Positions 10,069 to 11,843 of a stretch of 64,000 nucleotides of DNA are shown piece after piece. Source of the stretch: Vreelandella subglaciescola (GTDB lineage: Bacteria > Pseudomonadota > Gammaproteobacteria > Pseudomonadales > Halomonadaceae); the NCBI GenBank assembly GCA_030454225.1, contig JAKDRW010000001.1:1-64000 (forward strand), read 5' to 3'. Numbering within the stretch: the first letter of the stretch is position 1; each line of letters begins with the position of its first letter. The translations under genes were made by a program, and so were the position numbers. A model generated the notes under the pieces. That model was not told the DNA's origin, searched no databases, and was given only the letters and a program-made list of their open reading frames with translations.

Positions 10069-10194
10069 ATGGCCCAAAACGAAAATTACCACGATACGTC
10101 CGGCTTTTTTTCCATCCTGATGACGCTGGTCGTGCTGGTCAGCATGAGCTGCCTGCCGGCGACCATTGGCTGGATTCAAGTGTTTGCCAGCTAG
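10069..10194 (+). CDS. 41-residue single-span membrane protein of unknown function
   Basis: A short ORF with a very strong ribosome site (AAGGAGG, 5 bases before the ATG) encodes a polar N-terminus MAQNENYHDTSG and then one hydrophobic segment of about 25 residues. I do not recognise the family. The strong ribosome site and the clean hydrophobic profile argue that it is real. It lies 83 bases after the flavin reductase gene and may be read from the same transcript. Confidence 0.65.
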   Translation: MAQNENYHDTSGFFSILMTLVVLVSMSCLPATIGWIQVFAS

Positions 10195-10308
10195 CCTGCA
10201 AACAGGCTACTCTGGCGTTTCAGGCGTTGGCTTTCGCAGGCGAAATCCGCTAATTCAGACACTTGTGCACAGGCACGGGTGACACCCATTAATCCAGGCA
10301 GACAGGCT
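10195..10308 (+). promoter_or_regulatory. Probable promoter region of the DAHP synthase leader
   Basis: This 114-base gap separates the 41-residue membrane protein from the first leader ORF and should carry the promoter for the leader and aroF transcript. I could not identify a convincing -35/-10 pair. No other gene is visible. Confidence 0.35.
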
Positions 10309-10416
10309 ATGAACGCAGTCAGCTTCGTTACACTAGCGTTTTCCCCGACGGCGAATGCCGCCGCGTCTGCCTATGGGTATTGGTTTAGCCAAGGGGTGGC
10401 CGTGGCCGACGGTTGA
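10309..10416 (+). CDS. Aromatic-rich leader peptide of the DAHP synthase operon
   Basis: A 35-codon ORF with a weak AGG ribosome site 10 bases upstream contains the run A-Y-G-Y-W-F at residues 21-26. Tyr, Tyr, Trp and Phe codons thus fall within five codons (22-26). Such clusters are the mark of attenuation leader peptides, where a ribosome stalled for lack of charged tRNA changes RNA folding. The ORF ends 39 bases before an intrinsic terminator and lies upstream of a DAHP synthase, whose pathway makes exactly these three amino acids. The call rests on codon content and position; the peptide is not expected to have a function of its own. Confidence 0.8.
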   Translation: MNAVSFVTLAFSPTANAAASAYGYWFSQGVAVADG

Positions 10417-10455
10417 GTCGCGCCAACGGGCATCCCCTACGGGTTGCCTGCCGCG

Positions 10456-10491
10456 AAAACCCCGGTGGGTAATCCCCAGCCGGGGTTTTTT
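10456..10491 (+). terminator. Intrinsic terminator (attenuator) ahead of the DAHP synthase operon
   Basis: AAAACCCCGG (10456-10465) pairs with CCGGGGTTTT (10480-10489), leaving a 14-base loop, and the run of T continues to 10491. It lies 40 bases after the leader stop and about 300 bases before aroF, so it should stop transcription unless antitermination occurs. A competing pairing, GGGTT at 10441-10445 with AACCC at 10458-10462, would break the 5' arm. Confidence 0.85.
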
Positions 10492-10616
10492 GCGTCTATA
10501 CGAAGGCCCGGCGAGGCGCCAACCGTTAGCATACCCGCAGCGGATACCCCCACAAGACAGCCACTAAAGAAAGCCACACAAGACACCCATACAGGTTAAC
10601 CACCAGGAGCTGCACC

Positions 10617-10784
10617 ATGAGTCACCGCGCACCGGCTAATATCGAATCTCCCGTTCTGTACGGCTATCCGGCGTACGACACCGGGTGGCGATTTAGCCCC
10701 GCGCGGCCGGCAGCAGCTGCCACCTCCGACCGTGTGCACTCGGGTGGCGAAAGCCTACGATGTCCTTTGCCTACGGAGCGTTAA
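10617..10784 (+). CDS. Second aromatic-rich short ORF, coupled to aroF
   Basis: A 55-codon ORF starts behind CAGGAGC and ends at TAA only 3 bases before the aroF ATG, so the two are probably translationally coupled. Residues 15-26 read YGYPAYDTGWRF: three Tyr, one Trp and one Phe codon in twelve. The rest is low complexity with several Ala and Pro. The sequence CGGGTGGCGA occurs twice (10682-10691 and 10741-10750), and GCCACC between them (10719-10724) could pair with either copy. It could be a second, translation-level leader peptide or a small protein of unknown role. The ORF itself is well supported; the regulatory reading is inference. Confidence 0.65.
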   Translation: MSHRAPANIESPVLYGYPAYDTGWRFSPARPAAAATSDRVHSGGESLRCPLPTER

Positions 10785-10787
10785 CCG

Positions 10788-11843
10788 ATGAATGCCACTG
10801 TGTCTGCTGTTAAACCTGCTACCGCCGTTAGCGCGCCTGCCACGGCCTTGCCGACGCCCGACGCGCTTCGCGTCGCCTACCCCTTGAACCGCGCGCTAAG
10901 CGCGCAAATTAGCGCCCAGCGCGCGGCGGTAAAGCGTATTTTATCGGGCGAGGATTCGCGTCTGCTGGTCGTGGTGGGGCCGTGCTCGGCGCACGACCCC
11001 CGCGCCGTGCTTGAATACGCCGAGCGGCTGGCCGCGCTTGCCGACGACGTCGCCGGACAAATTCTGCCGGTAATGCGCGTATATGTGGAAAAGCCGCGCA
11101 CCACGGTGGGCTGGAAGGGCCTTGCCTACGACCCCGGCCTTGACGGCAGCGGCGATATCGCCCGGGGGCTTGAGCTTTCCCGCGAGCTGATGGGTGAGGT
11201 GGCCGAACGCGGTTTGCCCGTAGCCACCGAGCTTTTGCAGCCTATGCTGGCGCCGTATCTGCAGGATTTGCTCAGCTGGGTGGCGATCGGCGCCCGCACC
11301 ACCGAATCCCAGTTGCACCGCGAGCTGGCAAGCGACCTGGGCGCGGCGGTGGGGTTCAAAAACGCCACCGGCGGCGGTGTGCAGGTCGCGGTTGACGCCA
11401 TGGCCGCGGCTGCGCACCCGCACCAGCGCTTCGCCATGGACGTCGATGGTCGTCCGGTCATGCAGCAAACGCCGGGCAATCCGCACACCCACCTGGTGCT
11501 GCGCGGCGGCAGCGGCGAGCCCAACTATCAGGCCACGCACGTACGCGCAGCGACGGCCGCGCTTGAGGGCGCCGGGAAAAATCCGCGGCTGATGGTGGAC
11601 TGCAGCCATGCCAACGCGCGCAAGGATCACCGCCGTCAGAGCGAAGTGATGCTCGACGTGCTCGCCCAGCGCGAGGCGGGCAACCTCAACCTGGCGGCGC
11701 TGATGCTCGAAAGCCACCTCTACGAAGGCAAGCAGTCGCTCGACGGCGTGCTGCGCTACGGCGTATCGGTGACCGACGCCTGCATCGACTGGAATACCAC
11801 CGAACGCCTGCTGAAGATCGCCGCCGAACGGCTGGCCCGATGA
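10788..11843 (+). CDS. aroF: 3-deoxy-7-phosphoheptulonate synthase (DAHP synthase, AroFGH class)
   Basis: The enzyme condenses phosphoenolpyruvate and erythrose 4-phosphate in the first step of the shikimate pathway. The protein has 351 residues. It shows the type I-alpha signatures VVVGPCSAHDP, MRVYVEKPRTTVGWKGL and LMVDCSHANARKDH, the last two supplying substrate and metal ligands. The N-terminal region before residue 25 is Ala/Thr-rich and probably disordered. The end, GVSVTDACIDWNTTERLL, is typical of this class; feedback specificity (Tyr, Phe or Trp) cannot be read reliably. Regulation is suggested by two upstream aromatic-rich ORFs and a terminator. The aroF symbol is a family label only. 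Confidence 0.95.
   Translation: MNATVSAVKPATAVSAPATALPTPDALRVAYPLNRALSAQISAQRAAVKRILSGEDSRLLVVVGPCSAHDPRAVLEYAERLAALADDVAGQILPVMRVYVEKPRTTVGWKGLAYDPGLDGSGDIARGLELSRELMGEVAERGLPVATELLQPMLAPYLQDLLSWVAIGARTTESQLHRELASDLGAAVGFKNATGGGVQVAVDAMAAAAHPHQRFAMDVDGRPVMQQTPGNPHTHLVLRGGSGEPNYQATHVRAATAALEGAGKNPRLMVDCSHANARKDHRRQSEVMLDVLAQREAGNLNLAALMLESHLYEGKQSLDGVLRYGVSVTDACIDWNTTERLLKIAAERLAR

Follow-up and report, generated by a model that had tools for sequence, protein, structure and literature searches.

The window analysed here, a stretch of 64,000 nucleotides from an incomplete genome of Vreelandella subglaciescola (72% complete), carries the aroF gene for a class I DAHP synthase, whose product scored 422.2 bits against TIGR00034 (aroFGH; cut-off 173.2). 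Two short ORFs with clustered aromatic codons, designated here ORF1 and ORF2, lie one after the other upstream of aroF, and the stem of an intrinsic terminator begins about 40 nt past the ORF1 stop codon and ends in TTTTTT at 10486-10491. Both ORFs, the terminator, the spacing and the coordinates of the GGTGGC, GCCACC, CTCCG and CGGAG elements had been given in a preliminary description of this DNA, and all of them hold in the window. The features of the locus are as follows.

10309..10416, + strand: leader ORF1, 35 codons, MNAVSFVTLAFSPTANAAASAYGYWFSQGVAVADG, with the aromatic cluster Y-G-Y-W-F (SAYGYWFSQG); counterpart in 208 of 212 distinct loci
10371..10486, + strand: sub-threshold match to Rfam P15 (RF00627), 20.0 bits against a gathering score of 70
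10393..10401, + strand: putative attenuator segment A, in ORF1 past the aromatic codons; placed in the window by reading, A:B covarying in relatives
10428..10437, + strand: putative attenuator segment B, partner of A or of C; A:B contains two mismatches in the window (by reading)
10441..10448, + strand: putative attenuator segment C, GGGTTGCC, antiterminator partner of the terminator inner strand (columns 258-298)
10457..10491, + strand: intrinsic terminator with U-run, segments D and E, from the terminator-site listing; column pair 284-314 in relatives
10617..10784, + strand: leader ORF2, 55 codons, MSHRAPANIESPVLYGYPAYDTGWRFSPARPAAAATSDRVHSGGESLRCPLPTER, with YGYPAYDTGWRF; its stop codon ends 3 nt before the aroF ATG (10788)
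10684-10689, + strand: GGTGGC over the Trp codon, read in the sequence
10686..10695, + strand: nucleotide-invariant block TGGCGATTTA, comprising Trp, Arg CGA, Phe TTT and the first base of the next codon
10702..10710, + strand: 5' strand of helix S1 (RNAalifold, comparative pairing counts)
10719..10724, + strand: 5' strand of helix S2, GCCACC, inside the S1 loop (comparative pairing counts)
10724-10728, + strand: CTCCG, read in the sequence
10726..10734, + strand: 3' strand of S1; eight of nine pairs in the window, C-A mismatch 10707-10729 (by reading)
10743..10748, + strand: 3' strand of S2, GGTGGC (comparative pairing counts); its alternative partner is the invariant block (10688-10693), around S1
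10774..10778, + strand: putative aroF Shine-Dalgarno (SD) sequence CGGAG, inside ORF2, read in the sequence
10788..11843, + strand: aroF, class I DAHP synthase, 351 aa (TIGR00034 aroFGH)

Just upstream of these features, at 10069-10194, lies a further ORF of 41 codons (MAQNENYHDTSGFFSILMTLVVLVSMSCLPATIGWIQVFAS) for a small, probably membrane protein with no NCBIfam match; close relatives of it occupy the same place in, e.g., loci L014, L023, L032, L048 and L051. The stretch around ORF1 (10290-10500) folded more stably than 200 of 200 shuffled versions (z -4.1), while the folding stability of the ORF2 stretch (10600-10800) was not unusual (z -1.1; 29 of 200 shuffles were as stable).

The locus was compared with the upstream regions of aroF relatives drawn from genomes of the genus, of the family and of named species. 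The named records closest to the aroF of the window are from Halomonas and Vreelandella, and the window was accordingly treated as Halomonadaceae. As the loci were picked by aroF similarity, close relatives dominate all counts, and one list of aroF relatives comprised the best 80 of 587. The family contributed 127 genomes with an aroF match, less one at a contig end (G172); 24 genomes without a match stand outside the sample. Sampling is thin in other families, where upstream DNA came from 5 of 21 genomes (G039, G042, G046, G055 and G056). Duplicates were removed by two crude rules, which reduced 237 loci to 233 and then to 212; the counts on aromatic codons, terminators, composition, sequence elements and access to the aroF start refer to the set of 233 or to parts of it, in which near-identical loci were retained. 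The groups called Pseudomonas-type include L038, L230, L233 and L234 (not named Pseudomonas relatives) and two to three gammaproteobacterial records.

The preliminary description had made its reading depend on the recurrence of the ORFs in related genomes, and they do recur. Both ORFs precede an aroF-type DAHP synthase gene in 183 of the 212 distinct loci, ORF1 stands alone in 25 and neither is present in 4, in a tally for which six ORF2s (WRFI, WRYS and WRFK variants) were accepted, and one false ORF1 (L043) discarded, by hand. ORF2 without ORF1 was found in none of the 212. The four loci devoid of both have aroF products of 47-51% identity and probably belong to other paralogue groups. The pair occurs in Pseudomonas, Stutzerimonas, Halopseudomonas, Chromohalobacter, Cobetia and Halotalea, among others. 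ORF1 alone was seen in Salinicola (L058, L060, L062, L064), in a foursome of loci (L165, L171, L175, L181) and in L034, and the distance from the ORF1 stop to aroF in these three sets is 107-133 nt, in comparison to 248-328 nt in ten loci of the same list with an intact, broken or divergent ORF2. The shorter gap indicates that ORF2 was lost as a module. The loci counted as having ORF1 only also include L232, L236 and L237, with divergent short ORFs at the place of ORF2, and L147, in which ORF2 is apparently broken near the WRF block; the similar locus L146 is intact.

The leader elements were also looked for before other genes in nine genomes. Eight of these have TATTGGTTTAGC a single time, always at aroF, and TGGCGATTTANC was found at aroF in all nine, with 21 other sites as compared to 14 for the reversed control. 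No comparable leader pair was detected upstream of the second DAHP synthase paralogue in six loci, five of which have short ORFs with some aromatic codons and one of which (L276) has a terminator-like site. A search of ORF2 against a plasmid collection gave no match.

ORF1 shows the three attributes of a transcription attenuator, namely a cluster of aromatic codons, an intrinsic terminator before the gene and mutually exclusive helices that covary. At least five aromatic residues fall within 11 codons in 212 of 230 loci. The letters TGGTTTA are retained in 195 of 208 ORF1s even though the next residue varies (Ser, Arg, Thr, Ile and others), which points to conservation of the nucleotides and not of the peptide. 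A terminator-like hairpin followed by a run of four or more T lies past ORF1 in 165 of 230 loci and one with three T in 41 more (206/230); a slightly different rule returned 170 of 230. Covariation was scanned with our own script and a tree-aware null (40 nulls) in 127 non-Pseudomonas-type sequences, two of them from outside the family (L039, L043). The three top pairs, with E of 0.025 or less, comprised two in helix A:B (columns 146-239, TA in 62 sequences and CG in 51; columns 148-237, TA in 88 and CG in 28) and one in the terminator (columns 284-314; CG 78, GC 33, AT 8). The antiterminator pairing C:D was weaker (columns 258-298; TA 78, CG 28; E 0.35), and columns 162-267 and 291-307 ranked high as well. 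The same scan of 52 Pseudomonas-type sequences revealed no significant pair, none having E below 0.9. The terminators of the relatives and the covarying alternative helices thus give strong support, at the level of sequence comparison, to ORF1 as a ribosome-mediated transcription attenuator, which the preliminary description had also proposed.

The his, trp and phe operons of enterobacteria are controlled by ribosome-mediated attenuators, and ORF1 resembles these, the his type included, in the cluster of codons for the pathway products, the alternative helices and the intrinsic terminator. The aroF leader differs from them in that Tyr, Trp and Phe codons share one cluster and a second leader ORF follows. 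With the ribosome footprints established for attenuators, ORF1 can be read as follows. Under shortage of aromatic amino acids, a ribosome held at the Tyr/Trp codons would leave segment A free to form A:B, upon which C would engage the inner terminator strand and RNA polymerase would read through. Under plenty, the ribosome finishing ORF1 would cover A while at the stop codon, so that B:C and the terminator would form.

The region of ORF1 is not entirely new to the databases. The Rfam model P15 spans the leader from the YWFS codons of ORF1 through the terminator, and of the 20 loci searched it matched 10 at or above its gathering threshold, namely all 10 Pseudomonas-type loci and none of the 10 from Halomonadaceae; L076 (1121-1238) reached it as well. 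The window, with 20.0 bits where 70 are required, is not a P15 member by the Rfam rule despite an alignment over the whole model. P15 is filed as an sRNA, and PMC2527527 suggests that it may be a riboswitch. In the Pseudomonas-type loci, P15 is probably the terminated aroF leader and not a trans-acting RNA. A catalogued Pseudomonas 'sRNA' would thereby acquire a likely function, that of an attenuated aroF leader.

ORF2 appears to be under selection as a second aromatic leader, an idea put forward in the preliminary description and supported by the conservation of the ORF, by the gathering of its aromatic codons in one cluster and by the lack of an intrinsic terminator behind it. Aromatic residues amount to 0.294 per codon in the 12 codons before Trp and to 0.0043 after WRF, with none after WRF in 166 of 189 ORF2s; Tyr alone averages 3.0 in the 12 codons before Trp and is present there at least twice in 181 of 189 loci. 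For 189 of 191 loci the start of ORF2 could be assigned to an ATG with an SD-like sequence, starts having been chosen to maximise the SD match. The block TGGCGATTTA is invariant in 176 of the 177 ORF2s scored, a count slightly favoured by the preference given to this anchor where several were possible and one that does not cover the six ORF2s found by hand. Since the residue following WRF is Ser, Thr or Asn (Ile in the hand-found cases), here too the nucleotides rather than the peptide seem to be conserved. The motif TGG..TTTA is common to both leaders (in the window, TGG-TTT-A at 10381-10387 and TGG-CGA-TTT-A at 10686-10695).

Under the rule applied to ORF1, an intrinsic terminator-like site separates ORF2 from aroF in 1 of 188 loci, which rules out a second intrinsic terminator and leaves translation, Rho or RNA stability as the output of ORF2; of the three, translation is the likeliest. 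In 95 of 131 Halomonadaceae loci (called abutting below) the ORF2 stop lies at most 8 nt from the aroF start or overlaps it. Elsewhere ORF2 mostly ends about 25-50 nt before aroF, in Pseudomonas mostly about 39-50 nt, so direct occlusion of the SD sequence cannot explain everything. In the sequences read from Chromohalobacter, Cobetia and Pseudomonas, the gap behind ORF2 is occupied by a hairpin.

Two helices can be recognised within ORF2. With the T of TGG taken as position 1 (window 10686), S1 joins positions 17-25 with 41-49 and S2 joins 34-39 with 58-63; as the two cross, they would together make an H-type pseudoknot. Among 92 Halomonadaceae sequences, 800 of 828 cells are paired in S1 and 541 of 552 in S2. 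Changed cells still pair in 118 of 146 cases in S1 and in 26 of 37 in S2, compared with means of 0.31 and 0.29 in a null that ignores column conservation, and neither figure was reached by any of 300 nulls. Slid versions of the helices retained pairing far less. Double changes were counted in 58 cells of S1, a number reached by 11 of the 300 nulls, and in 5 cells of S2, below the null mean of 22. RNAalifold returned S1 unprompted in the abutting Halomonadaceae and most of S1 in the fluorescens/putida-type set. Neither S1 nor S2 reached significance in an unbiased covariation scan of ORF2 (best such pair, E 7.4), and no pair reached E 0.1 in a further scan. Columns 104-133, outside S1/S2, were the only pair with E below 0.05 and were rejected as a helix because their neighbours are unpaired. 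In individual sequences, as read, S2 is altered on both strands in L032 and L053, and in L032 this replaces both of the residues encoded there, Thr by Ile and Gly by Asp. The Cobetia-type sequences retain S2 through a different pair, and L059 also has an S1 that differs in sequence. The 27 distinct sequences of the fluorescens/putida type have an unbroken S2 that includes a G-U pair, and two of the nine S1 pairs are broken in 26 of them. The ORF2s of the aeruginosa/stutzeri type have neither helix. Like the two ORFs, the terminator and the alternative helices of ORF1, the pairing in S1 and S2 is shown by sequence comparison, its pairs being kept through change.

The invariant block offers a further partner. 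RNAalifold also paired it, in the abutting set, with the 3' strand of S2 in a helix that encloses S1; positions 3, 4, 6, 7 and 8 can pair with 63, 62, 60, 59 and 58 in 89-92 of the 92 Halomonadaceae sequences and in 27 of 27 fluorescens/putida-type ones. This alternative contains a constant G-G mismatch (5-61) and two G-U pairs, L053 breaks one of its pairs, and because the block never varies it receives no compensatory support. If the pairing is real, GGTGGC could be taken by either the block or the 5' strand of S2, and the choice would rest with a ribosome at the Trp-Arg-Phe codons. A shorter alternative, TGGC:GCCA, fits nearly all sequences but is itself invariant and so proves nothing.

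These helices differ in part from the switch first proposed for ORF2. In the preliminary description, GCCACC was to pair with either of two GGTGGC copies. Its pairing with the copy at 10743 is recovered as S2, but the competing copy over the Trp codon occurs in only 5 of 191 loci (5/133 in Halomonadaceae, 0/36 and 0/22 in the two Pseudomonas-type groups) and, judged by this distribution, is a local accident. The second part of the proposal, a lock formed by CTCCG with the CGGAG of the aroF ribosome site, fared little better. CTCCG is found in 112 of 133 Halomonadaceae and 36 of 36 fluorescens/putida-type loci. A CGGAG close to the aroF start is common in the abutting Halomonadaceae (77 of 95 loci); among the non-abutting ones it was seen in 1 of 36, and the Pseudomonas-type loci lack it. 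Of the 131 Halomonadaceae loci for which an aroF start was called, 70 have both elements. Such coexistence is no evidence of pairing, as S1/S2 account for CTCC and the ribosome site for GGAG.

Folding with a ribosome mask, suggested as a check in the same description, gave a divided answer. In pseudoknot-free folding of the 95 abutting loci, CCUCCG (bins 36-47) was the favourite predicted partner of the SD sequence, with a pairing probability of 0.22 per SD base out of 0.59 paired, and this shifted with the mask, to 0.17 when it extended to W+12 and to 0.26 when it extended to W+30. Access to the aroF start, computed in the same pseudoknot-free way, changed little: its mean was 0.44 in 131 Halomonadaceae loci and 0.545 in 36 fluorescens/putida-type loci, and became 0.50 and 0.564, respectively, with a ribosome at Trp. 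The folding models thus make an SD lock possible in one branch, and it cannot be general; SD sequestration as a general mechanism was rejected since access is nearly constant and CGGAG is mostly confined to the abutting Halomonadaceae.

We lean slightly towards the view that aroF is governed by two serial leader ORFs that respond to the same supply signal, ORF1 acting on transcription and ORF2 on translation, with starvation switching the gene on. Transcripts that escape the first stage would carry ORF2. When aromatic amino acids are short, a ribosome held at its Tyr/Trp/Phe cluster would mask the invariant block at the Trp-Arg-Phe codons, and the RNA further downstream would be free to fold into the crossing helices S1 and S2, which would tie up CCUCC and leave the aroF ribosome site clear. 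When they are plentiful, ribosomes would translate ORF2 to its end, opening S1/S2 on their way, and would finish on or beside the aroF ribosome site, and aroF would be translated less freely. That S1 and S2 coexist and that the second stage acts on translation we infer, as we do its direction, for which the need of the pathway is the reason. A more detailed version can be offered only tentatively, as somewhat doubtful: the leader might be an ancient serial sensor that joins transcription attenuation to a later control of translation, both by way of ribosomes at aromatic codons, and in which TGGCGATTTA competes with the 5' strand of S2 for GGTGGC and a ribosome stalled on the block favours a coding-region H-type pseudoknot that opens the aroF start. 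Such a sensor would be common to Halomonadaceae and Pseudomonadaceae and cleanly lost in, e.g., Salinicola.

The main rival to translation as the output follows from the C-rich, G-poor start of aroF, where an untranslated message could be terminated by Rho; the position of the ribosome on ORF2 would then decide whether aroF is translated, making ORF2 a second attenuator of the Rho type. Windows covering the first 100 nt of aroF (10788-10887) show an excess of C over G of 0.16-0.24 in all three groups of loci; by this measure the stretch is the highest of the leader bar one upstream window of the fluorescens/putida type (+0.19 at -200), and aroF ranks second of the 45 genes of the window in this measure (0.14). 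The near absence of intrinsic terminators behind ORF2 (no such site in 187 of 188 loci) would suit Rho as well. However, Ala/Pro/Thr-rich N-terminal codons yield the same composition, from which a Rho site is not establishable, and ribosomes stalled by starvation would expose the RNA to Rho, which is the wrong direction unless S1/S2 or initiation at aroF prevents it. We regard this alternative as unlikely. ORF2 could also do nothing but feed ribosomes to aroF, its aromatic codons being a by-product of descent from ORF1 that senses nothing. The shared TGG..TTTA would fit such a descent, and simple coupling is suggested by the closeness of the ORF2 stop to the aroF start in most Halomonadaceae loci and by the hairpin in the gap of the other sequences read. 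The recurrence of two or more Tyr codons before Trp amid freely varying sequence, and the near absence of aromatic codons after it, make pure coupling improbable.

Two further alternatives concern the RNA structure itself. The original switch, in which GGTGGC at the Trp codon pairs with GCCACC unless covered by a ribosome, CTCCG in turn blocking or releasing the aroF SD sequence, draws on CCUCCG as the favourite SD partner in the 95 abutting loci and on the joint occurrence of CTCCG and CGGAG (70/131). Its first arm is restricted to 5 of 191 loci, CGGAG is present in a single one of the 36 Halomonadaceae loci with aroF set apart and in none of the Pseudomonas-type loci, and CTCC and GGAG are each already accounted for otherwise; we consider this switch quite improbable. 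That the S1/S2 pseudoknot is a ligand-binding riboswitch within ORF2 seems very improbable: the 121 sequences that align without a gap over 80 nt from the Trp codon would be in keeping with an aptamer (two Cobetia-type sequences, as read, have a longer S1-S2 spacing), but the loop sequences vary, no Rfam family scored above its gathering threshold on ORF2, and the aeruginosa/stutzeri-type loci keep ORF2 without S1/S2.

The serial control that we favour has partial precedents. The preliminary description knew of no two-stage arrangement, a statement that needs narrowing in view of the tandem attenuators of Salmonella mgtCBR, called a singular example in PMC3641672. According to the same source, the mRNA leader of mgtCBR likewise has two leader ORFs (mgtM and mgtP), the second rich in the codons of one amino acid, but there both control transcription and respond to different signals, whereas the signals in the aroF leader overlap and ORF2 lacks the intrinsic terminator (1 of 188 loci) that the mgtCBR type would call for. 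The mgtQ uORF before mgtB, with alternative stem-loops (PMC8092293), and the two leader peptides of ermB provide examples of a short ORF that controls translation of the next gene; their signals, Mg-related and macrolide, respectively, are unlike the amino-acid supply of a biosynthetic pathway. Control by a 5' RNA ahead of DAHP synthase has been predicted as well, as attenuation for the Acholeplasma uORFC-13-1 motif before aroF (PMC8632094) and as regulatory RNAs of Shewanella aroF and aroH (PMC2659441), and the passages on them do not mention a second leader ORF. No published description of the aroF leader pair was found in the open-licence literature; older comparative work on Pseudomonas aroF may hold one. 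Transcription attenuation by a leader peptide is classic and tandem attenuators are known, and we found no description of the pair at aroF, which is what appears to be new.

The leader would represent a natural and widespread case in which a single signal apparently checks one gene twice. Lineages with ORF1 but no longer ORF2 are ready-made controls for the effect of the second layer on gain, noise or threshold. Since DAHP synthase opens the route to aromatic products, the leader may also be useful for metabolic engineering in Halomonas and Pseudomonas putida.

Some further features of ORF2 deserve mention. Programmed frameshifting at TGGCGATTTA was considered and rejected, as there is no slippery heptamer and the frame between ORF2 and aroF is inconstant (offsets -2, -3, -4, +4 and others), and so was an RNA polymerase pause at GGCGATTTAGCG, the +1 G of which, by eye, is present neither in Pseudomonas nor in the window. 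The ORF2 tails are unusual in their use of CGA, which makes up 235 of 366 Arg codons there compared with 27 of 508 in the N-terminal region of aroF. On reading, CGATGT (window 10758-10763) is frequent in the tails of Halomonadaceae and CGAACAC in those of Pseudomonas loci. The stop codon of ORF2 is TAG in 54 of 58 Pseudomonas-type loci and in 3 of the 133 others.
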